From Lachnospiraceae bacterium (GTDB taxonomy: Bacteria > Bacillota > Clostridia > Lachnospirales > Lachnospiraceae): a stretch of 64,000 bases of DNA. Of this stretch, positions 8,019 to 21,891 are shown piece after piece. Location: positions 124,001 to 188,000 of the forward strand of contig CAJTEW010000004.1 of assembly GCA_910575605.1 (NCBI GenBank), given 5' to 3'. Made by a program: the position numbers and the translations under genes. Every line of letters begins with the position of its first letter. The stretch's first letter is position 1. Below the pieces are notes generated by a model. It was given only the letters and a program-made list of their open reading frames with translations. It was not told the DNA's origin and made no database searches.

Positions 8019-8155
8019 CCCAGGCAGGGCGGCCTGATAACGAAAATTACTTGGAAAGCGGGGAAATAAGAGGTAATATGCGGGTGGTGGAATAGGCAGA
8101 CTATATTATCAAAAATAGTTAAAATCTGCGATTCACGTAGCCAGATTAACCATTA

Positions 8156-8371
8156 TTCGATGTGGGGGCATTCCAGTATCTGGTAAAGCCCGTGGACGAA
8201 TAGAAATTCGCAGAGGTGTTTGGCCGGGCGGTGTGGAAGATCGTATCGGAGGCAGAGCAGAAAAAGAAAAAACTTGTGATCCAGTATGGCGGTGAGGGAA
8301 AAGCCATACCGCTGAATGACATATATTACATGGAGAGCCAGAATCACAATATGGAAGATTATCCAGAATAA
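8156..8371 (+). pseudogene. Remnant of an AgrA/LytTR-type response regulator
   Basis: One frame reads FDVGAFQYLVKPVDE, then a TAG stop, then KFAEVFGRAVWKIVSEAEQK and AIPLNDIYYMESQNH. This is the end of a receiver domain (YLVKP with the conserved lysine), the linker and the first strand of a LytTR DNA-binding domain. The upstream receiver, the start codon and most of the LytTR domain are missing. Homology stops exactly at a perfect inverted repeat (8357-8385). The rest of 8019-8433 shows no other gene. Confidence 0.65.
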
Positions 8372-8385
8372 TATTCTGGATAATC
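8357..8385. repeat. Perfect 14-bp inverted repeat at the remnant's end
   Basis: GATTATCCAGAATA (8357-8370), one A, then TATTCTGGATAATC (8372-8385). It sits at the break point of the LytTR remnant and downstream of the convergent kinase gene. It may be a deletion scar, a mini-element end or a hairpin ending the kinase transcript; no strong T run follows on either strand. Confidence 0.55.
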
Positions 8386-8433
8386 CCATTGAAGCCTGTG
8401 AAAAGCTGGAAGCAGGAATTTTTCAAGATAAGT

Positions 8434-9819
8434 TTATTTCGGTATGATTAGTTCGACTTTAAATCCGCCGTATTCGCTATGGCCAATTAAAATTTCCTCA
8501 TTATGTCCTTTTATAATCTGTTTCACAATAAGAAGCCCTAAACCATGTCGCTGTTCGGTAGTATTCGTATCACAGACCATATAATGTGGTGTATTATTTA
8601 GCTTGTCAATTTGTTCGTCGGAAGCTCCTATGCCGCTATCCTCAATGCAAATCTTACAAGTATTGTTATCATCATTAACATACACATAAATCACACACCC
8701 ATTTTCATTGTGATTTATGCTGTTCTGAATAAGGTTTGATATTGCACGTTTTAGCAAATCCTTATCAGCATTAATGTAACAAGCGGACAGAGTATCAACG
8801 GTTTTCCATTCAATTGGAAATCTATCATCAATATCCATGTTCATAAAATCCACAACCACTTGCCGAATAATAGATACTGCATTTTCCTGTTTCATTGTTA
8901 TCGGCTGCATATCATATTCAAGTTTGGAAGCAAGATTGAGGTCGCTAATCAAGTCTTTCATTCGCTTACTTTGCCTTACAATGACAGAGGCTTTTTTACG
9001 CTCAATTTCTGACAGATTTTTTGAACTTTTCAACTGCCCAGCGTAACCCATAATCATTGACAATGGTGTTCTGACATCATGGGAAACGCCTGCTATCCAG
9101 TTTGCCCTTGCAGTTTCTTTTTTTCGTAACTGTTCAGCTTGCATTTGTAATATTTCTGATGTTTTATTGATTTTTTTCGCTAATTCAAAAAACATGCCAT
9201 TTTCTTTAATGCAAACAGGGCTGCCGCTTGACAAATCCTGTATTCCATTCGTTATTGGTCTAATGGAATGTAACAATTTTGTATTAGCAGCAACGTATAT
9301 GAGAAAAATTAGGACAGTATTGATAGCCAAAATAATAATTGTGTTCTTGGGTAAATCTGCAATGAAGTTATAGTCCCAGCTTGCCCTTGTATGCTTCCAA
9401 AATCTATCTTTTGGATAGCCTAATACCAATAATCCATTTTGGGCTTCTCCCGTAAAAGTAGGGTATCCGTCTACATAGCCGCGCGTTAATTCTGCTATAT
9501 CTGATAATGTATATTGCATAGGGATATTGTTAGGTAGATTATCTGTCTGCCATACAACCTGCCGTGTATCATTGTTAATAAGGACAGCCCAGGCATTTTC
9601 TTCTTTTAATTTAGCCATGACATCATCAGATATACAATAGCAATCATCTGTTAATAGCAATGCGGCTGCTACATGATCTGCCATATCCCACGGAGAAAAT
9701 GTTGACGTATTTTTTACAAAGACAATTGCGAAAAAAGCAACATTCAAAATAGAAAAGAGTATTGTACTTAACGTCATTATTCCGACAAAGCGGCGTATTA
9801 GTTTTGAAATACTTTTCAT
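8434..9819 (-). CDS. Sensor histidine kinase of a peptide-resistance module (CprK-like)
   Basis: The 461-aa protein has one membrane segment near residues 13-35, an extracellular domain to about 160, a second segment at about 160-180, then a HAMP-like linker. HisKA carries WIAGVSHDVRTPLSMIMGYA (phospho-His in SHD), and HATPase_c has the N box LIQNSINHNE and G boxes EDSGIGAS and RHGLGLLIVK. It should autophosphorylate in response to an extracellular signal and phosphorylate the adjoining regulator, whose gene ends 1 base upstream. Arrangement with an ABC exporter resembles CprRK and other lantibiotic-sensing systems. Base use is more AT-rich than the housekeeping genes. Confidence 0.9.
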   Translation of the reverse strand: MKSISKLIRRFVGIMTLSTILFSILNVAFFAIVFVKNTSTFSPWDMADHVAAALLLTDDCYCISDDVMAKLKEENAWAVLINNDTRQVVWQTDNLPNNIPMQYTLSDIAELTRGYVDGYPTFTGEAQNGLLVLGYPKDRFWKHTRASWDYNFIADLPKNTIIILAINTVLIFLIYVAANTKLLHSIRPITNGIQDLSSGSPVCIKENGMFFELAKKINKTSEILQMQAEQLRKKETARANWIAGVSHDVRTPLSMIMGYAGQLKSSKNLSEIERKKASVIVRQSKRMKDLISDLNLASKLEYDMQPITMKQENAVSIIRQVVVDFMNMDIDDRFPIEWKTVDTLSACYINADKDLLKRAISNLIQNSINHNENGCVIYVYVNDDNNTCKICIEDSGIGASDEQIDKLNNTPHYMVCDTNTTEQRHGLGLLIVKQIIKGHNEEILIGHSEYGGFKVELIIPK

Positions 9820-9820
9820 A

Positions 9821-10525
9821 CTATTTCCCCTCTACAATTAACTTATAACCTAATCCCTTGACTGTAACCAACGAAACAGGGTGCGAGGGATTTTGTTCTA
9901 TTTTTTCTCTGATAAGGCGTATATGCGCCATTAAAGAATTTTCATATCCAAAGGGATTGTCACCCCATGCTGCTTCACATAATGCGTCAATCGTTACAAT
10001 ACGCCCTGCATTACGATATAAGGCAGATAGTAAATCATATTCTTTTGCCGTTAATGGAATATGTTCATCATTTTTTATGACCTCAGCACATGAAAAATCA
10101 ATTTGACTGTCATGTAAGCATACAAGAGGATTTTCACCTTTGTAGCTTCTGCGCAAAACTGCCATGATACGAAACAAAAGCTCTTTTGGCAAAAAGGGTT
10201 TTATGATATAATCATCTGCCCCTAAACCAAAGCCTTTGAATTTATCGTCATCTTCGCCACGGGCAGTAAGAAAAAGAATAGGATAATCACCGCCTTTCTT
10301 TAACTGTTCCATTAAGTCAAACCCACTCCCGTCTGGAAGCATTACATCAAGTATTGCTAATTCCGGGCGGGATTTTTCAGCTTGTTCCATAGCTTCTTTC
10401 ACATTTTTTGCAGTTTTGACATTTTGGAATCCATATTCAATCAAAATAGAAAAAACCATATCTAAAAGCTCTTGTTCATCATCGACGAGCAGTATACGTT
10501 TACTTAGCAGATAATCTTCGTTCAT
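9821..10525 (-). CDS. OmpR/PhoB-family response regulator (CprR-like)
   Basis: A 234-aa protein with a receiver domain (RILLVDDEQELLDMVFSILI; phosphoacceptor in LAILDVMLPDGSGFDL; Lys in DDYIIKPFLPKELL). A winged-helix output domain contains IPLTAKEYDLLSALYRNAGR and NSLMAHIRLIREKIEQNPSH. The start at 10525 has AAAGGAGA in front of it; a longer frame reaching 10627 lacks one. It forms an operon with the kinase and is divergent from the ABC exporter genes. Two 10-bp direct repeats in the shared promoter are its likely binding site. Confidence 0.9.
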   Translation of the reverse strand: MNEDYLLSKRILLVDDEQELLDMVFSILIEYGFQNVKTAKNVKEAMEQAEKSRPELAILDVMLPDGSGFDLMEQLKKGGDYPILFLTARGEDDDKFKGFGLGADDYIIKPFLPKELLFRIMAVLRRSYKGENPLVCLHDSQIDFSCAEVIKNDEHIPLTAKEYDLLSALYRNAGRIVTIDALCEAAWGDNPFGYENSLMAHIRLIREKIEQNPSHPVSLVTVKGLGYKLIVEGK

Positions 10526-10590
10526 AGTAAAATCTCCTTTCACAGATACATCATACCATATATATTGTAATTTTTTTTGGATTTCTGAAA

Positions 10591-10611
10591 ATGTAAGGTA
10601 GATGTAAGGTA
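10591..10611. promoter_or_regulatory. Direct-repeat operator, likely bound by the response regulator
   Basis: ATGTAAGGTA occurs at 10591-10600 and again at 10602-10611, an 11-bp period as preferred by tandem OmpR-family dimers. About 30 bases downstream is TATCAT (10641-10646) without a good -35 box, as expected of an activator-dependent promoter for the ABC genes. Confidence 0.6.
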
Positions 10612-10671
10612 AAGAGAATGTTATCACAAGGTTGCATTGGTATCATTTAAGAAACGAAAGGAGATGTTTAT

Positions 10672-11453
10672 ATGGATTACATTATCACAACAGAGCAGTT
10701 AACAAAAAAATACAAATCCTTTGTTGCTGTTAATAACGTTTCACTGAACATTCGTAAAGGCAGCATTTACGGCTTTCTTGGTCCGAATGGTGCAGGAAAA
10801 TCTACTACTATGAAAATGCTTTTGGGACTGACGGCGCCCACAAAAGGCAGTTTTACAATCGACGGGAAGCAATTTCCCAATGACCGCCTTTCCATTTTGA
10901 AAGAAGTAGGTTCCTTTATCGAATCGCCATCTTTTTATGCAAATCTGACAGGAAAAGAAAACCTTGACATTATCCGCCGCATTTTGGGACTTCCTGTTAG
11001 TTCCGTTGTGGACGCATTGGAGCTTGTCGGACTTTCTGAATTTGGCGGGCGGCTTGCAAAAAATACTCATTGGGTATGAAACAACGGTTAGGACTTGCCG
11101 GAGCCTTATTGGGCAGACCACCTATTTTGATTTTAGATGAGCCTACAAATGGACTTGACCCATCTGGCATACATGAAATCCGAAATTTGATTAAATCGCT
11201 GCCTGGTCTTTACGATTGCACGGTTCTTATTTCTTCTCATATGCTGTCTGAAATCGAGTTAATGGCAGACGATATAGGAATACTCAATCATGGCCATTTG
11301 CTGTTTGAGGGCAGTTTGGATGAATTACGGCGGACCGCATTACAGTCTGGATTTGCTGCGGGTAATAAAATCAGCACTATTAATCTGGAAGAGATGTTTC
11401 TGTCTATGGTTGATAAAGATAATGCAGGCAGAAAGCAGAGGGCAATGTTATGA
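10672..11453 (+). pseudogene. Lantibiotic-resistance ABC transporter ATPase, frameshifted
   Basis: The first part (from ATG 10672) carries Walker A GPNGAGKST at residues 37-45 and reads to GGRLAKNTHWV, where it stops at 11079. The second part, in the next frame, carries the signature region YSLGMKQRLGLAGALLG, Walker B ILILDEPTNGLDPS and SSHMLSE. Homologues read ...KKYSLGMKQRL without a break. Restoring one A to the A6 tract at 11058-11063 rejoins the frames. The gene is otherwise full length and both permeases are intact. The break may be real decay, reversible slippage or a sequencing error. Without repair the exporter lacks its motor. Confidence 0.8.
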
Positions 11454-12187
11454 ACATCACTATGAGGACATTTGTAATCGAGCTTAGAAAAGAGAAACGC
11501 ATAGGCGTTATTCCGTTAATGCTTGCAGTTGGCATTTTGGGAGCAGCATACGCCTTTATCTTTTTTCTTGTGCGAAAAGACACTCTTCTAAACCTGCCAT
11601 TAGCTCCTATGGACGTTCTGCTTACGCAGCTATATGGCATGATGATGGTTTTGAATATGTTCGGTATCATAGTCGCTGCTTGCATTATTTACAATATGGA
11701 ATTTAAAGGAAGTGCTGTTAAAAAAATGCATATGCTCCCTATGAACGTTTCGGTTATGTATTTTTGCAAATTTTTGATTTTAACTATAATGCTCTTGATT
11801 GTAATCGTTTTTCAGAATTTGGCACTTACAAAAATTGGTCTGACAGATTTACCACAGGGCACATTTGAGTTTGAGACGCTGCTATCTTTTGCCGGATATT
11901 CATTTATAACGTCAATGCCCATATTATCTTTTATGATTTTTATATCTTCCCGTTTTGAAAATATGTGGGTGCCTCTTGGTATCGGTGTCGCGGGATTCTT
12001 AAGTGGTATGGCATTGGCTGTGTCAAATAACACTTTGCTTTGCATACACCCCTTTGTGGTTATGCTAAAACCTGCTGTTGCAATGAGCGCACAGCCAGAT
12101 ATTATAGTTGTATGTTTCTCGCTGGTTGAAACAGCTGTTTTCCTTTTTGCCGGATTATGGGCTGCTAAAAATCTATGCTACGAATAA
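11450..12187 (+). CDS. Lantibiotic immunity-type ABC transporter permease (first, MutE/EpiE-like)
   Basis: A 245-aa protein with about six hydrophobic segments and an amphipathic start (MRTFVIELRKEKRIGVIPLM). EFKGSAVKKMHMLPMNVSVM is the cytoplasmic loop typical of ABC-2 permeases of the MutE/EpiE/BcrB group. The start codon overlaps the ATPase stop (ATGA), showing translational coupling. With the second permease it should form the membrane channel that expels antimicrobial peptides from the membrane. Its function depends on the frameshifted ATPase. Confidence 0.82.
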   Translation: MNITMRTFVIELRKEKRIGVIPLMLAVGILGAAYAFIFFLVRKDTLLNLPLAPMDVLLTQLYGMMMVLNMFGIIVAACIIYNMEFKGSAVKKMHMLPMNVSVMYFCKFLILTIMLLIVIVFQNLALTKIGLTDLPQGTFEFETLLSFAGYSFITSMPILSFMIFISSRFENMWVPLGIGVAGFLSGMALAVSNNTLLCIHPFVVMLKPAVAMSAQPDIIVVCFSLVETAVFLFAGLWAAKNLCYE

Positions 12188-12200
12188 GGAGATGTACGAT

Positions 12201-12965
12201 ATGAGTTTTTTAGAGATACTTAAAATCGAGTTTATAAAAGTAAAACGCAGTAAAATGATACCTCTGATTTTCATAGCTCCGCTGTTAGTTGTGGCTTCCG
12301 GCGTGGCAAACCTGCAAAGTTATTTTTCGCCAGAATATACAAACGCATGGGCGGCTATGTTTATTCAGAGCGCATTAGTTTATGCATATTATCTGCTTCC
12401 GTTTAGCATGATTGTTGTATGTGTGATGATTGCGGGACGGGAAACGGGGAATAACGGAATATTGAAAATGTTAGCCCTGCCTGTTAGCCGCTATGTCCTT
12501 CCAGCAGCAAAATTTTGTATACTGTTGTTTTATCTGCTTATGGAAATAGTTGTTTTTCTTGTGGTTTTTGTGATAACAGGATTGATTGCAGCGAACAATA
12601 CAGGAATTACAGAAACACTACCGATCATGTATCTGCTGAAGTGGTGTGTGGGTTTATTTCTTACCATGCTCCCCAGTATGGCGATAATGTGGGCGATTAC
12701 GATACTATTTGATAAACCATTGCTATCCGTTGGATTAAATCTGTTTCTTGTTATCCCCAGTGTATTAGTAGCAAATACACTATTTTGGGTTGTTTATCCT
12801 TATTGTTATAGTGGGTATTTGGTTTCCTGCTCTTTGCATGATTTCACAGCAAAGGGTGTTAGCACTGGATTTACCCTGTTCCCGTTTTTGCCATCTGCAA
12901 TTCTAATTTTTGCATTGGCACTTACAGTGACTATAACATGTTTTGGAAAAAAAGAAATGAGGTAA
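12201..12965 (+). CDS. Lantibiotic immunity-type ABC transporter permease (second, MutG-like)
   Basis: A 254-aa permease starting MSFLEILKIEFIKVKRSKMI with about six membrane helices; ETGNNGILKMLALPVSRYVL is the family's conserved first cytoplasmic loop. Translation starts at 12201, with AAGGAGA in front of it, 13 bases after the first permease. Two different permeases plus one ATPase is the composition of LanFEG, MutFEG and CprABC transporters. No lantibiotic structural or modification gene lies nearby, so this is a self-standing resistance module. Confidence 0.82.
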   Translation: MSFLEILKIEFIKVKRSKMIPLIFIAPLLVVASGVANLQSYFSPEYTNAWAAMFIQSALVYAYYLLPFSMIVVCVMIAGRETGNNGILKMLALPVSRYVLPAAKFCILLFYLLMEIVVFLVVFVITGLIAANNTGITETLPIMYLLKWCVGLFLTMLPSMAIMWAITILFDKPLLSVGLNLFLVIPSVLVANTLFWVVYPYCYSGYLVSCSLHDFTAKGVSTGFTLFPFLPSAILIFALALTVTITCFGKKEMR

Positions 12966-12968
12966 GTT

Positions 12969-13088
12969 ATGGAAAATAAGAGACTCTTCGTTTTCTTGGG
13001 ACTGGTACTTTCTATTATTTGCGTTAAAAATCACGATAGCCGAAGAAAGAAGAGCTCTAGAAGAGTCTCTTGGGATATTGGAAGATGA
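12969..13088 (+). other. Short unexplained frame between a long inverted repeat
   Basis: A 39-codon frame starts MENKRLFVFLGLVLSIICVK, 3 bases after the permease stop and without a clear ribosome binding site. AAGAGACTCTTC (12978-12989) and its exact inverse GAAGAGTCTCTT (13060-13071) bracket most of it. It may be a hairpin ending the ABC transcript, an eroded element or a small membrane peptide gene. An alternative frame (ITIAEERRALEESLGILEDD) also looks codon-like. No assignment is possible. Confidence 0.25.
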
Positions 13089-13104
13089 TAGGTTTATTTT
13101 TTTG

Positions 13105-13133
13105 TTGACAGAACTAATGTTTGTGTGTATAAT
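13105..13133 (+). promoter_or_regulatory. Consensus sigma-A promoter of the DNA-repair cluster
   Basis: TTGACA (13105-13110) and TATAAT (13128-13133) with a 17-bp spacer match the consensus exactly. So strong a promoter in front of a repair gene implies tight repression, consistent with the LexA-like boxes overlapping and following it. Confidence 0.85.
13110..13123. promoter_or_regulatory. Second LexA-like box, between -35 and -10
   Basis: AGAACTAATGTTTG matches 11 of 14 positions of the Bacillus-type SOS box CGAACRNRYGTTYC. It fills most of the promoter spacer, where bound LexA would exclude RNA polymerase. Confidence 0.45.
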
Positions 13134-13143
13134 GTAATTATAT

Positions 13144-13157
13144 CGAACAAATGTTTT
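13144..13157. promoter_or_regulatory. LexA (SOS) box
   Basis: CGAACAAATGTTTT matches 13 of 14 positions of the Firmicute SOS box CGAACRNRYGTTYC. It starts 10 bases after the -10 box, over the transcription start and 22 bases before the radical SAM start codon. Confidence 0.65.
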
Positions 13158-13178
13158 GTGAAGCGGAGAGAAAGATAT

Positions 13179-14510
13179 ATGCACATTCAGGAATCTATGT
13201 CAATGTATGAAAAGTTGAATATACTAACGGATGCGGCCAAGTATGATGTTGCATGTACCTCCAGCGGGACCTCCCGTAAAGGAGATGGGACAGGCATGGG
13301 GACCTGCGAACAGTCGGGAATCTGCCATAGTTTTTCAGCAGACGGCAGATGCATTTCTCTTCTTAAAATCCTGTTTACCAATGAGTGCATCTATGACTGC
13401 AGATACTGCGTTAACAGGAGGAGCAATGATATAATCCGTACCTCTTTTACCCCGGATGAGGTCTGCACGCTTACGATGGAATTTTACCGGAGAAATTATA
13501 TAGAGGGACTGTTTTTAAGCTCCGGTATTTTAAGGAGCCCGGACTACACCATGGAATTGATTTATGCTGCACTTTATAAGCTTCGCAGGGAATGTAACTT
13601 TCAGGGATATATTCATGTGAAGGCTATTCCCGGGGCGAATACGGAGCTGATACAGAGGGTGGGATTTTTGGCGGACAGGATGAGTGTGAATCTGGAGCTT
13701 CCCACAGCAGAGAGCTTAAGGCTTTTGGCACCTCACAAGTCGAGAAGGAATATTTTAACTCCCATGCGCCTTGTTCAGAACAGGATGGAAGAGAATAAGC
13801 AGGAGCTTGCTCTTTACCGCAATGCGCCGAGATTTGTTCCGGCAGGACAGAGTACCCAGATGATTATAGGTGCCACGCCTGAGACAGATTACCAGATCAT
13901 ACAGGTGGCGGAATCCCTGTATCAGAAGTTTGAGCTTAAGAGAGTGTTTTACTCTGCCTTTGTGCATGTGAATGAGGATAAGGCGCTGCCTAAAAGAACA
14001 GATGAAGGGCCGCCCCTCCTTCGGGAGCACAGGCTCTATCAGGCAGACTGGCTTCTTAGGTATTATCATTTTCAGGCGTCGGAGCTTTTATCAGAGGAGA
14101 ATCCGAATTTTAATGTGATGCTTGACCCGAAGTGTAACTGGGCCCTTAAGCACCTGGAGCAGTTTCCGGTGGAGATTAACCGGGCGGATTATAAGATGCT
14201 GCTTCGGGTGCCGGGACTTGGATATAAGTCGGCAGTGCGGATTGTGAAGGCAAGAAGGCTTGGGGTTCTGGGATTTACGGACCTTAAGAAGATGGGAGTT
14301 GTGCTTAAGCGGGCTATGTATTTCATTACCTGCAGCGGGAGGATGATGTATCCGACAAAGCTTGAGGAGGACTATATTACAAGGAATCTCCTGAATGTGG
14401 GAGAACGGCTTCCAGAGGAGGTAAGGAATATGGGATACCGGCAGCTGTCTTTATTTGACGATGTGAGATTTGGAAGCGGATTTTATGAAAAGGCAGGTGG
14501 TACAATATGA
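13179..14510 (+). CDS. Putative DNA modification/repair radical SAM protein (rSAM_link_UDG type)
   Basis: The 443-aa protein begins MHIQESMSMYEKLNILTDAA. A radical SAM [4Fe-4S] site CIYDCRYC lies at about residues 70-77 (CxxxCxxC). Extra cysteines precede it (CEQSGIC). Near the C-terminus RVPGLGYKSAVRIVKARR is a helix-hairpin-helix DNA-binding motif. This is the family annotated as putative DNA modification/repair radical SAM protein, often linked to uracil-DNA glycosylase; its reaction is not established. Start 13179 has GGAGAG in front of it. Its stop overlaps the start of the partner gene. The SOS-type promoter supports a repair role. Confidence 0.88.
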   Translation: MHIQESMSMYEKLNILTDAAKYDVACTSSGTSRKGDGTGMGTCEQSGICHSFSADGRCISLLKILFTNECIYDCRYCVNRRSNDIIRTSFTPDEVCTLTMEFYRRNYIEGLFLSSGILRSPDYTMELIYAALYKLRRECNFQGYIHVKAIPGANTELIQRVGFLADRMSVNLELPTAESLRLLAPHKSRRNILTPMRLVQNRMEENKQELALYRNAPRFVPAGQSTQMIIGATPETDYQIIQVAESLYQKFELKRVFYSAFVHVNEDKALPKRTDEGPPLLREHRLYQADWLLRYYHFQASELLSEENPNFNVMLDPKCNWALKHLEQFPVEINRADYKMLLRVPGLGYKSAVRIVKARRLGVLGFTDLKKMGVVLKRAMYFITCSGRMMYPTKLEEDYITRNLLNVGERLPEEVRNMGYRQLSLFDDVRFGSGFYEKAGGTI

Positions 14511-15271
14511 AAACAGTCTATATATGCAATGATACGATAACCGGAATTTTTTCCGCAGTATATGATGCATGGAGGGACAGACAGAGAGAGGAAACCTGTA
14601 AAATTGCCTTTAAAAATACACTTGAGCAGGAACTCTTCTGTGAATACCGGCAGGTGGAGGAGACAGAGCACAAAGCACAGGCAGTAGAAAACCTGATAAA
14701 AAAGCATCTTGGAAGGCGGGCTTATTGGGACTTGTATCACGCTGTGCTTTCACAGGACGAAGAGAAAGGGGATGCTGTTTTGGGCACGATGCTTGCAGCC
14801 AGAGAGATTCCGGACAGTACGAAGATTATGGAGCACTTAAGCCATCCGAAGGTGGCGATGGCTTTTAGGCTTGGCAGGAATGTAGAAGGCGAAGCCCACA
14901 GCTACAAAGGCTTTTTACGGTTCAGGGAGCTTGCAAGCGGAGTGCTTTATTCGGAGATTACGCCAAAGAATCAGGTACTTACCTGTCTTGCACCACATTT
15001 TGCGGACAGACTGCCTCTAGAGAACTGGATGATTTATGATAAAACCCATCAGATGTTTGTAGTACATGAGAAGGCGAAAAAGTGGGTGCTGGTGTGGAAT
15101 GAGGATATTGACTTGTCGGCGGCATCCCGGGTATCAGATAAAGAGATGGAGTATGCAAGGCTCTGGAAAAGCTTTGTAAGGACAATTGCGATTGAATCAA
15201 GGACGAATCCAAAGTGCCAGCTTAATCATCTGCCTTTACACTTTAGGGGTGATATGTTAGAAATGGGTTAA
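14507..15271 (+). CDS. Conserved partner of the radical SAM repair protein (TIGR03915-type)
   Basis: A 254-aa soluble protein starting MKTVYICNDTITGIFSAVYD and containing RNVEGEAHSYKGFLRFRELA and PHFADRLPLENWMIYDKTHQ. These match the family annotated as probable DNA metabolism protein that accompanies the preceding radical SAM family. In some species it is fused to a uracil-DNA glycosylase domain; here the length leaves no room for one. Its ATG overlaps the preceding stop by four bases, so the two are translationally coupled and probably interact. The biochemical activity is unknown. Confidence 0.82.
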   Translation: MKTVYICNDTITGIFSAVYDAWRDRQREETCKIAFKNTLEQELFCEYRQVEETEHKAQAVENLIKKHLGRRAYWDLYHAVLSQDEEKGDAVLGTMLAAREIPDSTKIMEHLSHPKVAMAFRLGRNVEGEAHSYKGFLRFRELASGVLYSEITPKNQVLTCLAPHFADRLPLENWMIYDKTHQMFVVHEKAKKWVLVWNEDIDLSAASRVSDKEMEYARLWKSFVRTIAIESRTNPKCQLNHLPLHFRGDMLEMG

Positions 15272-15332
15272 TGTAATGTAATGGAAGATATGCTATAATT
15301 AAGATATCTTTAAAAATCGGAGAAAAGATATC

Positions 15333-17708
15333 ATGGACATAAAGGAGCCGGTAATCCGGATATCTGTGCGCAGTCTTGTGGAGTTTATTCTGCGCTCAGG
15401 AGATATAGACAACAGAATTGGAGGGGCGGACAAGGATGCGATGCAGCTTGGAAGCAGAATACACAGGAAGATACAGCGTAGGATGGGGGCAGATTACCGG
15501 GCAGAGGTTCCGCTAAAGTATGAGATTCCATGCAGAGGGTATGTGATGCTTCTTGAGGGGCGTGCAGACGGAATTATTGAGACAGAGAAGGGGACTGTAA
15601 TAGATGAAATAAAGGGGGTTTTTAAGGAGCTTCATGCTTTGGAGAAACCAGTGGAGGTTCATCTTGCACAGGCAAGATGCTATGCTTATATGTATGCGTC
15701 CCAGCACGAGCTTGATGAAATCGGGGTTCAGATGACCTACTGCAATATGGAGAATGAAGATATTAAAAGATTTCAGAATGTATATTCCTTTGAAGAGCTT
15801 GGGGCATGGTTTGAAGAGCTTGTGGGAAGATACGAAAAGTGGGCGAGATATCAGATTCAGTGGAAGGAAAAAAGAAACCTTTCTATAAAGGCAGTAGAAT
15901 TTCCTTTTACCTACAGGGAGGGACAGAAGAACCTGGTGTTTTCCGTGTATCGGACGATTCTTAGAAAGAAAAGGCTGTTTATACAGGCTCCTACAGGAGT
16001 GGGAAAAACTATTGCCACCCTGTTCCCGGCAGTAAAGGCAGTTGGAGAGGGACTGGGGGAAAAGATCTTTTATCTGACTGCAAAGACAATAACACGTACA
16101 GCGGCATTGCATGCTTTTGACAAACTTAAGGAGCAGGCTCTGCGTATGAAGGTGATTGTCCTGACTGCAAAGGAAAAGATCTGCTTCTGTGAGGAGACAA
16201 ACTGCAGCCCAGATTACTGCCCTTATGCGAAGGGTCATTATGACAGGGTGAACGATGCCGTATATGAGCTTCTTACAACCTCTGATGAAATGAGCCGGGA
16301 GATTTTAGAGGCACAGGCAGAAAAATGGAAGGTCTGCCCCCATGAGATGAGTCTGGATGTATCCACATGGGTAGATGCAGTTATCTGTGATTATAATTAT
16401 GTGTTTGACCCCACTGCTCATCTGCGCAGGTTTTTTGGAGAGGGTATAAAGGGGGAGTATCTGTTTTTGATTGACGAGGCCCATAACCTGGTGGAGAGGG
16501 GACGGGAGATGTACAGCGCACACATTTACAAAGAAGATGTGCTGAAGGTCAAAAGGCTTGTAAAAGGGGTGGATGGAAAGCTTGCGAAGGAACTTCAGGA
16601 TTGTAACCAAGGACTTCTTATGCTTAAAAGAGAATGTGAAGGGTGTCAGGTGCTTAACAGTGTATCGCACATCTATCTGAAGCTTCTTAGGATTATGGCG
16701 GAGATGGAACGCTTCTTAGAGGAATGTAAAAAGGAGGAGCTTAAAAAGGAAGTGCTGGAATTCTATTTTAATGTGCGTATGTTTATCGCGATTCATGAAT
16801 GCCTGGATGAAAACTATGTGATTTATTCTGAGCTTGAAGGAAACGGGCATTTTAGGCTTCGGCTGTTCTGCGTGAACCCGGCAGCAAATCTTAAGAAATT
16901 TCTGGATAAGGGAAACAGCACAGTCTTTTTTTCGGCAACACTGCTTCCGATTCATTATTATAAAAAACTTTTAAGTACAGAGACAAAGGATTATGCAATT
17001 TATGCGGAATCTCCTTTTGATGCAGGAAAAAGGCTTATTCTTACGGGAAATGATGTAAGTACAAAATATACAAGGCGGGGAGAGGAGATGTACAATCGGT
17101 ATGCACAATACCTTCTGGCAGCAACAGAGGCAAAGACCGGAAATTATATTGCTTTTTTCCCTTCCTATCATTTTATGGAGGAGGTTTATAAGGCATTTGT
17201 ACTGCTTCTTTCTAAGGAATCAGATACGGAAAAACCAAGAGAGATTGAGTATGTGATGCAGTCCCAGTACATGTCTGAGGAGTCAAGGGAGATATTTCTG
17301 GAAAATTTTGAAGAGACAAGGGAGCACAGCTTTATAGGCTTCTGTGTGATGGGAGGAATTTTTTCAGAGGGTATTGATCTGACAGCAGATAAGCTTATCG
17401 GCGCTATGATTGCAGGTACGGGACTGCCGCAGGTATGTAAGGAACGGGAGCTTCTCAAGGGATATTTTGATTCCCAGGGACTTCCTGGTTTTGACTATGC
17501 GTACTTGTATCCGGGAATGAATAAGGTGCTCCAATCAGCAGGAAGAGTTATCCGCACGGAGGACGATAGGGGTGTGGTGCTTCTTTTAGATGACAGATTC
17601 AGGGAAGCAAGAGTACGGGAGATATTTCCAAGGGAATGGGAAAATAATTCTTTTTGCAGCATAAAGAATGTAACGGAAAAGATAAGAACATTCTGGGAAG
17701 AAAAATAG
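15333..17708 (+). CDS. Cas4-like nuclease fused to an XPD/DinG-type Fe-S DNA helicase
   Basis: A 791-aa protein. Residues 1-180 carry PD-(D/E)XK nuclease features: GSRIH (His44), EGRADG (Asp79), IDEIKG (Glu92, Lys94) and a QxxxY-like QARCY. Residues about 195-790 are a superfamily 2 Rad3/XPD helicase: Walker A APTGVGKT at 219-226, four cysteines at 284, 286, 291 and 296 positioned as a [4Fe-4S] cluster, LIDEAHNL as Walker B, VFFSATL, and QSAGRVIRTEDDRG as motif VI. It should unwind DNA 5' to 3' and could cut it. It starts 61 bases after the radical SAM partner gene, with a TATAAT element at 15293-15298, so it may share the transcript or have its own promoter. Confidence 0.88.
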   Translation: MDIKEPVIRISVRSLVEFILRSGDIDNRIGGADKDAMQLGSRIHRKIQRRMGADYRAEVPLKYEIPCRGYVMLLEGRADGIIETEKGTVIDEIKGVFKELHALEKPVEVHLAQARCYAYMYASQHELDEIGVQMTYCNMENEDIKRFQNVYSFEELGAWFEELVGRYEKWARYQIQWKEKRNLSIKAVEFPFTYREGQKNLVFSVYRTILRKKRLFIQAPTGVGKTIATLFPAVKAVGEGLGEKIFYLTAKTITRTAALHAFDKLKEQALRMKVIVLTAKEKICFCEETNCSPDYCPYAKGHYDRVNDAVYELLTTSDEMSREILEAQAEKWKVCPHEMSLDVSTWVDAVICDYNYVFDPTAHLRRFFGEGIKGEYLFLIDEAHNLVERGREMYSAHIYKEDVLKVKRLVKGVDGKLAKELQDCNQGLLMLKRECEGCQVLNSVSHIYLKLLRIMAEMERFLEECKKEELKKEVLEFYFNVRMFIAIHECLDENYVIYSELEGNGHFRLRLFCVNPAANLKKFLDKGNSTVFFSATLLPIHYYKKLLSTETKDYAIYAESPFDAGKRLILTGNDVSTKYTRRGEEMYNRYAQYLLAATEAKTGNYIAFFPSYHFMEEVYKAFVLLLSKESDTEKPREIEYVMQSQYMSEESREIFLENFEETREHSFIGFCVMGGIFSEGIDLTADKLIGAMIAGTGLPQVCKERELLKGYFDSQGLPGFDYAYLYPGMNKVLQSAGRVIRTEDDRGVVLLLDDRFREARVREIFPREWENNSFCSIKNVTEKIRTFWEEK

Positions 17709-17718
17709 TCAAAAAAGA

Positions 17719-17779
17719 GCTCCCATGCGGAGCGAAGCTCTGGCTGTTCCAAAACAGCAGCTTTCGCCGGCATGGGAGC
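17719..17779 (-). terminator. Terminator of the GntR-ABC operon (reads leftward)
   Basis: GCTCCCATGC (17719-17728) pairs with GCATGGGAGC (17770-17779), with an inner GAAGCT/AGCTTTC stem. On the minus strand the hairpin is followed by a T6 run, so it ends the permease transcript; it probably also blocks the convergent helicase transcript. Confidence 0.7.
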
Positions 17780-17813
17780 AAATACTGTTCACATAGTAAT
17801 AAAAATTTATATG

Positions 17814-20985: not shown

Positions 20986-21891
20986 CTACTCATTTTCCTG
21001 GATGATTTTTTCCTGTACGTCTGAATCAAACTGGTTTTTGCGCAGCATTTCGATTTCATATTTATAGGGCGCGTAAGAAACCTTTTCCTTTGCAGGAGAT
21101 GCCACATAAGGGGTTTCAAGTATCTTTGGAACCTGCTCAAAATCAGGATGATGAACGATATAGGACAGTGCATTAAAGCCGATTTCACCGAAACCTAAGT
21201 TTGCGTGGCGGTCTTTTTTGGCACCCCGTATATTCTTGCTGTCATTGATGTGGAATACTGCTATCTGGTCTTTCCCAAGAAGCCTGTCAAACTGGTCTAT
21301 TACTCCGTCAAAATTATGAACAATATCATATCCGCTGTCATGGGTATGGCAGGTGTCAAAACATACCCGAAGCTTGTCATTATGTGTGACACCGTCATAA
21401 ATACATGCCAGCTCTTCGAAGGAGCGGCCGATTTCAGAGCCCTTTCCGGCCATAGTCTCAAGAGCTATATAAAGATTCATATCAGGAGTTATAACCTCGT
21501 TTAAGCCTTTTATAATCTGGCTGATTCCGGCCTGAGCACCTGCGCCTACATGGGCGCCGGGATGAAGGATGAGGATATGGCTTCTTAAGGCCTCACTTCT
21601 TGAAACCTCCAGAGTTAGGAAATCTACTGCAAGCTTAAAAGTCTCTGGCTTTACAGTGTTTCCAAGGTTGATGATGTAGGGGGCATGTACAACAATATCA
21701 TCAATTCCGTTCATCTTCATATATTCCCAGGCAGGAGTGATATTTAGTTCGCTTATGTCTTTTCGTCTTGTGTTCTGCGGAGCTCCGGTATAGCACATAA
21801 AAGTGTTGGCACCATAGGAGCGGGCCTCCTTTGCGGAGCCAAGAAGCATGTCTTTACCACTCATGCCTACGTGTGAGCCGATTTTCAACAT
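20986..21891 (-). CDS. nfo: Endonuclease IV (AP endonuclease)
   Basis: A 301-aa AP-endonuclease-2 TIM barrel: [15 protein letters not shown] at the start, [50 protein letters not shown] and [24 protein letters not shown]. These contain the His, Glu and Asp ligands of the three zinc ions. It cuts DNA 5' to abasic sites in base-excision repair. It lies 12 bases after the flavin reductase-rubredoxin gene on the same strand, so repair and oxygen/peroxide defence are probably co-expressed. Confidence 0.95.

Follow-up and report, generated by a model that had tools for sequence, protein, structure and literature searches.

Do a radical S-adenosylmethionine (SAM) protein, its overlapping partner and a nuclease-helicase form one DNA repair pathway, or are only some of them tied together? 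This question is raised by a locus in 64,000 nucleotides (nt) of DNA from a Lachnospiraceae bacterium (assembly GCA_910575605.1, contig CAJTEW010000004.1, positions 124,001 to 188,000; this whole stretch is hereafter the window), where the three genes follow one another on the + strand (Table 1). The first encodes a radical SAM/helix-hairpin-helix (HHH) protein of TIGR03916, which we take to be COG4277, and the second a DUF4130 protein of TIGR03915; these are widespread families annotated as putative DNA repair alone. An earlier note on this DNA, made from its letters, had proposed that the SOS response controls all three genes as one damage-induced pathway. We consider a narrower reading probable, namely that the radical SAM and DUF4130 proteins constitute a DNA-damage-induced repair module: an obligate pair that is controlled by LexA and docks on the sliding clamp.

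LexA boxes at the promoter of the pair

The radical SAM gene is preceded by a perfect sigma-A promoter, as had been read before, and this is the single 12/12 sigma-A site within 12950-17800. Box 1 of the two LexA boxes lies at the position first given, although its match to CGAACRNRYGTTYG is 12/14 rather than the 11/14 scored in the earlier note; box 2 had been placed and scored correctly (13/14), and it starts 39 nt past the first base of the -35 hexamer. Two boxes arose in the 300-nt upstream region in 2 of 3000 dinucleotide shuffles, which makes the arrangement unusual. The bare motif is not enriched: CGAACN4GTTCG with at most two mismatches gave 9 matches in the window against 10.9 expected, and with at most one mismatch 11 matches in the genome, where the reversed pattern, used as a control, gave 41. 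Motif enrichment, in the window or the genome, was therefore dropped as evidence for SOS control.

Three of the 11 genome sites belong to recA, a Y-family polymerase gene and the window, seven lie inside long open reading frames (ORFs), and one (L003) is found between two divergent genes with no recognised SOS link. In the same genome, recA has CGAACTAATGTTCG 37 nt upstream of its match, lexA is preceded by two adjoining boxes (L013) with two mismatches each, and the Y-family polymerase gene carries twin boxes upstream. The strain's own SOS genes thus use the same box type, and the comparison with recA and lexA that the earlier note had proposed comes out in its favour.

Conservation and rewiring of the damage control

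Related loci were drawn from the top of three rankings, so that high-scoring members are over-represented in each: (i) the 29 best-scoring of 112 besides the window's own locus (L016-L044); (ii) the best 80 of 589 named loci (L045-L124), which span Lachnospiraceae, Oscillospiraceae, Paenibacillus, Desulfosporosinus, Halanaerobiales and others; and (iii) the best 29 of 65 over the cut-off (L144-L172). Copies or near-copies occur within the samples (L034/L046, L019/L060, L037/L049), and L160, L162 and L171 were left out of the 26-locus phylum set and of the residue and tail counts over about 150 sequences.

All 30 same-family loci carry a box within 300 nt and 29 of them two or more; of 242 control stretches, 13 carry a box. 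Among the 80 named loci, 66 have a box and 52 at least two, the background from other genes of these loci being 42/756 and 14/756, respectively. The earlier note had named loss of the boxes in related genomes as a point against it; of the 110 pooled loci, 96 keep a box upstream and 81 keep at least two (shuffled sequences give 4.4% and 0.15% per locus, respectively), and the geometry of box and promoter recurs among the relatives. In 26 further loci of the phylum, 21 have a box and just four have two, which indicates that a doubled box is largely characteristic of the window's family. The gene for LexA itself is present in 180 of 200 genera of that family.

Outside the phylum, the box changes with the host. 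Alpha- and Betaproteobacteria use GAAC-N7-GAAC and CTGT-N8-ACAG, respectively, as LexA boxes, and the group's own motif was found at 11 of 12 Pseudomonadota loci (8/8 alphaproteobacterial and 3/3 betaproteobacterial), while the Acinetobacter locus and the single Bacteroides locus gave no match to any LexA pattern tried. Moreover, five box-less loci (L098, L104, L110, L117 and L120; Gemmiger and Ruthenibacterium), which form one branch of the tree, have a same-strand XRE-type S24 repressor gene upstream. This gene directly adjoins the pair in four of them (at 37-201 nt from the radical SAM ORF) and is separated from it by one gene in L098; its identity as XRE-HTH plus Peptidase_S24 was checked with Pfam for L098 and L117. 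In L112, likewise without a box, genes for an S24 protein, a Y-family polymerase, the radical SAM protein and DUF4130 run head to tail (8078-12153), as a putative self-contained damage cassette. Given the CGAAC boxes, the other LexA motifs and the S24 neighbours, this operon appears to be linked to damage control in repeated cases and in different ways. Direct SOS control of the pair in the window, as first claimed, is well supported by the boxes, the promoter geometry, the same-genome boxes, the conservation and the switch of motif in Pseudomonadota, all of which are features of sequence.

A radical SAM protein with a predicted clamp-binding tail

The window's radical SAM protein scores 695.1 bits against a curated TIGR03916 cut-off of 343.5, and TIGR03916 was its sole match in an NCBIfam scan. 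The HHH described before is seen as a profile match of 26.4, slightly below the Pfam HHH_3 cut-off of 27. Besides the cysteines of the radical SAM motif, C26, C49 and C58 are invariant in 150 of 150 sequences, and these three extra cysteines suggest an auxiliary cluster. A fold search with the predicted model gave lipoyl synthase, HydE, MqnE and BioB types as best matches; spore photoproduct lyase (SplB) was not among the 50 fold matches listed, which does not exclude it, and a sequence search matched no solved structure over most of the protein's length. A divergent relative on a Gemmatirosa plasmid (L131; 303 bits against the cut-off of 343.5) is without the three N-terminal cysteines and has no recognised DUF4130 gene adjoining, yet reads QLSLW near its end.

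The C-terminal tail holds a feature that the earlier note missed, a predicted clamp-binding motif. Q[LMIV]xLF occurs near the C-terminus in 30 of 30 radical SAM proteins of the window's family. Within the last 60 residues of the named proteins, Q[LMIV]x[LMF]F is present in 72 of 80, compared with 2 of 896 other ORFs, and the strict form in 58 of 80, compared with 0 of 896. The motif is also found in 18 of 26 further proteins, with QL[ST]IF in seven more; a wider tail pattern, counted without a background, covers 144 of 149, and the Q is kept in 149 of 150. Conservation spikes at residues 421-425 (numbered from residue 2), which form the motif, while the flanks on both sides are variable, and the predicted local distance difference test (pLDDT) score of the AlphaFold model is below 50 for residues 407-442, as in a disordered tail.

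Across phyla, the motif is kept as five- or six-residue forms: Pseudomonadota tails read QLALF, QLSLF, QLTLF, QLSLI, QLALI, QLQLL, QLSLL or QLEMF, and hexapeptide-like tails are found in Acinetobacter (QLSLGF), Bacteroides (QLLLDF, within QLLLDFGE) and L070 (QMSLPL). Such exchange is predicted by clamp binding and is hard to explain otherwise. The tail thus has the sequence marks of a beta-clamp client, that is, a conserved QL[SD]LF-type or hexapeptide motif in a segment predicted to be flexible, and the Y-family polymerase of the same genome carries QLDLF. In the relevant passages of PMC12309361, QLSLF is the clamp-binding motif of Bacillus subtilis PolC, bound by DnaN (7.2 uM by fluorescence polarisation, in DnaE flanks), and QLSLPL is a tight binder of the Escherichia coli clamp.

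DUF4130 as the obligate partner

The partner gene is the overlapping conserved gene that had been noted before, with a start that overlaps the radical SAM gene by 4 nt; it adjoins that gene in 139 of 149 loci. The window's family was surveyed across 200 genera, with presence called at the curated cut-offs (343.5 bits for TIGR03916 and 112.25 bits for TIGR03915): 112 genera have both genes, none has a single one and 88 have neither. Below the cut-offs, part of the radical SAM gene stands alone in G025 and G142, and a piece of DUF4130 alone in G073, G136 and G170. Joint function of the two proteins is very well supported by this co-occurrence (112 of 112).

The DUF4130 model aligns to the DHH-DHHA1 fold (RecJ/Cdc45/NrnA) over about residues 1-212 with a low Z, which makes a DHH-like fold a prediction, and the DHH signature, which holds metal ligands, is missing, the DHH tripeptide occurring in 2 of 140 sequences. 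Comparison with PDB sequences gave no match up to E 1; Pfam assigned DUF4130 to all 58 members, its remaining matches being stray and weak; and no glycosylase appeared among the 50 fold matches listed, which does not exclude one.

At alpha- and betaproteobacterial loci, DUF4130 is fused to UdgX, a glycosylase that traps uracil and abasic sites. The fusion, with GEQPG and a KRRIH-like His loop, is seen in 10 of 11 loci, the eleventh record ending before the partner, and the UdgX model was over its cut-off in all three fused proteins scanned. A uracil-DNA glycosylase (UDG) domain with GEQPG and the KRRIH loop is absent from the window's partner, for which TIGR03915/DUF4130 was the sole match, and no glycosylase domain was found in the scanned Bacillota, Bacteroides and Acinetobacter partners. 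Unfused DUF4130 keeps E129 (130/131), H164 (128/131) and D178 (131/131), whereas nine of the ten fused proteins (L143 left out) have the E in 0/9, the H in 2/9 and a gap at D178; some fused copies read ILTPD, and the gap may be an alignment shift. On a Sulfitobacter plasmid (L137), a stop within the UdgX portion breaks the DUF4130-UdgX frame, which is not annotated as a coding sequence.

The nuclease-helicase neighbour

The third gene encodes a fusion of PDDEXK_1 with DEAD_2/Helicase_C_2, as the earlier note had recognised. It starts after a gap of 61 nt from DUF4130 that holds nothing like a promoter or a terminator on the + strand, and so could be co-transcribed with the pair in the window. 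A function shared with the pair is supported only in part. Of the 37 closer named loci (L045-L081), 19 have the gene downstream of the pair and on its strand; in five of the other 18, less than 4 kb of sequence follows. In 47 pair-bearing genomes the pair and this gene share a contig, and in 39 of these it is downstream; among 100 placed genomes, 53 have them on different contigs, where adjacency cannot be judged, and 12 more have no listed place. Against a shared function, it is present in 65 of 88 genera without the pair as well as in 105 of 112 with it, lacks a separate LexA box in 18 of 19 loci, and is missing downstream from all 43 named loci that are further removed (L082-L124), some of which are short. 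The pair occurs without this neighbour in other phyla, and all adjacency cases, labelled or seen, fall in the Lachnospiraceae branch of the tree. The co-occurrence that the earlier note had proposed to check is strict for the pair, whereas the nuclease-helicase is a common gene (170 of 200 genera). By its distribution, it is a separate common gene and a recurrent neighbour within Lachnospiraceae alone; a three-gene functional unit was not accepted as a general rule and was kept as possible for the window alone.

PADLOC matched the nuclease-helicase to its type IV CRISPR model typeIV_DinG (390.5 bits) and to Cas4 (E 3e-4), which is a resemblance only, and the typeIV_DinG model may mislabel a common helicase, given the homologues in most genera. 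A defence role was rejected, these matches being to the nuclease-helicase alone. A phage-borne system was also rejected: an IMG/VR scan found two relatives among 40 candidate stretches, and the 10 matches in phage-collection records are eight unannotated fecal contigs and two Acinetobacter phage records. An AP_endonuc_2 (endonuclease IV-like) gene lies 3.3 kb from the nuclease-helicase (20989-21891, - strand), and a similar protein is encoded near the nuclease-helicase in L054, L064 and L074.

Table 1. Features of the locus (positions in the window)
Feature	Position	Strand	Evidence
Sigma-A promoter TTGACA-N17-TATAAT	13105..13133	+	12/12 matches
LexA box 1 AGAACTAATGTTTG	13110..13123	+	In -35/-10 spacer; 2 mismatches to CGAACRNRYGTTYG (12/14)
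LexA box 2 CGAACAAATGTTTT	13144..13157	+	Just past expected start point; 1 mismatch (13/14)
Radical SAM/helix-hairpin-helix protein, TIGR03916 (COG4277), 443 aa	13179..14510	+	ATG at 13179
CX3CX2C radical SAM cluster motif (C70, C74, C77, from M1)	13386..13409	+	150/150 sequences
Helix-hairpin-helix (DNA-binding) segment	14166..14288	+	HHH_3 profile match
QLSLF, predicted beta-sliding-clamp-binding motif, disordered C-terminal tail	14442..14456	+	Sequence and AlphaFold model
Obligate partner, TIGR03915/DUF4130, 254 aa, predicted DHH/RecJ-like fold	14507..15271	+	235.6 bits vs 112.25
PD-(D/E)XK nuclease + XPD/DinG-type helicase	15333..17708	+	PDDEXK_1 + DEAD_2/Helicase_C_2

Proposed mechanism and alternatives

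We propose that LexA, seated on two operators (one within the promoter, the other just past the start point), would keep the operon off until RecA-driven cleavage of LexA frees it. The radical SAM protein would then bind DNA through its HHH, while its QLSLF tail is predicted to attach it to the DnaN sliding clamp where PolC binds, and because of this docking the protein would work at or just behind damaged forks. Formation of a 5'-deoxyadenosyl radical is the chemistry of the radical SAM superfamily, and with this radical the protein would act on a DNA lesion. DUF4130, modelled as DHH-like without the signature, would most likely hold damaged or single-stranded DNA for the enzyme, and the UdgX fusion in Pseudomonadota would favour base damage over strand breaks. 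The nuclease-helicase would be an optional helper in part of Lachnospiraceae. The pair, then, probably repairs damaged DNA at the replication fork, which suggests a DNA radical chemistry coupled to replication. More tentatively, this might be an SOS-induced, replication-coupled radical repair with a LipA-like auxiliary cluster, in which the tail competes with PolC for the clamp and DUF4130, a pseudo-enzyme, presents lesions in single-stranded gaps. If true, such repair would stand apart from excision, recombination and translesion synthesis, as well as from the known forms of direct reversal. It would span Bacillota, Pseudomonadota and Bacteroidota at a minimum, one branch having added UdgX.

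Other roles for the same proteins have to be weighed. The pair could serve a branch of base excision directed at uracil- or abasic-type damage, with DUF4130 capturing the site in Bacillota as UdgX does in Pseudomonadota and the radical SAM protein finishing or releasing the trapped product; the UdgX fusion agrees with this, as does the loss of E129, H164 and D178 in fused copies, as if the activity had passed to UdgX, but the possible alignment shift at D178, the scanned partners without a glycosylase domain and the fold matches listed (which do not exclude one) leave this rather doubtful. Direct reversal of a radical- or photo-type base lesion, in the manner of SplB, would fit the radical SAM core, the HHH, the SOS control and an SplB-like association of DUF4130 in a figure legend of PMC3765255. 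It is nonetheless unlikely, as the best fold matches are of other types and the three extra invariant cysteines suggest an auxiliary cluster. Moreover, little UV reaches gut anaerobes.

The remaining alternatives concern the arrangement of the locus. The reading first proposed, a single nuclease-helicase excision pathway made up of all three genes, draws on the terminator-free gap and on the frequent downstream position of the third gene; we think it quite improbable, since the nuclease-helicase is found in many genomes without the pair, the pair is found without it in other phyla, and adjacency is confined to one branch. Chance LexA-like boxes before constitutive genes would account for motif counts that do not exceed the control, and are scarcely credible beside the conservation and rewiring of control across groups. 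For the obligate pair under predicted LexA control, a time (after damage) and a place (the clamp) of action are suggested by the predicted clamp tail together with strict co-occurrence and with LexA wirings that differ between several groups; the co-occurrence also names two proteins to purify together, and the function of the TIGR03916 family becomes directly testable.

Comparison with known systems

SOS control of the pair is already predicted in print for other bacteria. A COG4277-COG1573 operon has been placed in predicted SOS networks of Bacteroidetes, with Verrucomicrobia and Alphaproteobacteria also cited (PMC8565304); in the passages concerned, it likewise joins an HHH/radical SAM gene and a partner under predicted LexA control, but the partner is treated as a uracil-DNA glycosylase, whereas that of the window is DUF4130 without a UDG domain, and the main text contains no DUF4130, UdgX or clamp. 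LexA control was proposed for CAC3343-CAC3344 of Clostridium acetobutylicum (PMC3828012), that is, for one species, in a passage without twin-box conservation, clamp motif or helicase. Radical SAM proteins are listed in Gram-positive and Streptomyces LexA regulons (PMC7739468, PMC9380542), where the passages do not state the family, which may be SplB rather than TIGR03916. DUF4130 has been called a predicted mutagenesis-related enzyme in a passage of PMC3765255, and the word 'radical' is absent from the main text of a gut SOS meta-regulon paper (PMC3998124).

Searches of Creative Commons-licensed papers in PubMed Central found none under TIGR03916 and none that joins a clamp-binding motif or UdgX with radical SAM. 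Within these papers, the predicted clamp tail appears new for TIGR03916, and so do the counts that show strict pairing, the arrangements with S24 and Y-polymerase genes, the predicted DHH-like fold and the family-limited helicase neighbour.

Each part of the module resembles a known protein and departs from it. PolC, in the passages of PMC12309361, has an identical QLSLF near its C-terminus but is a polymerase, and clamp binding by the window's protein is predicted. RecJ, Cdc45 and NrnA share the DHH-DHHA1 fold that the DUF4130 model approaches at low Z, although DUF4130 is without their signature. UdgX forms a fusion with DUF4130 in Pseudomonadota, where the orthologous radical SAM gene comes first, and is absent from the window's protein. 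Lipoyl synthase (LipA) differs in its cysteine spacing, and to such a core the radical SAM protein adds an HHH and a predicted clamp tail.

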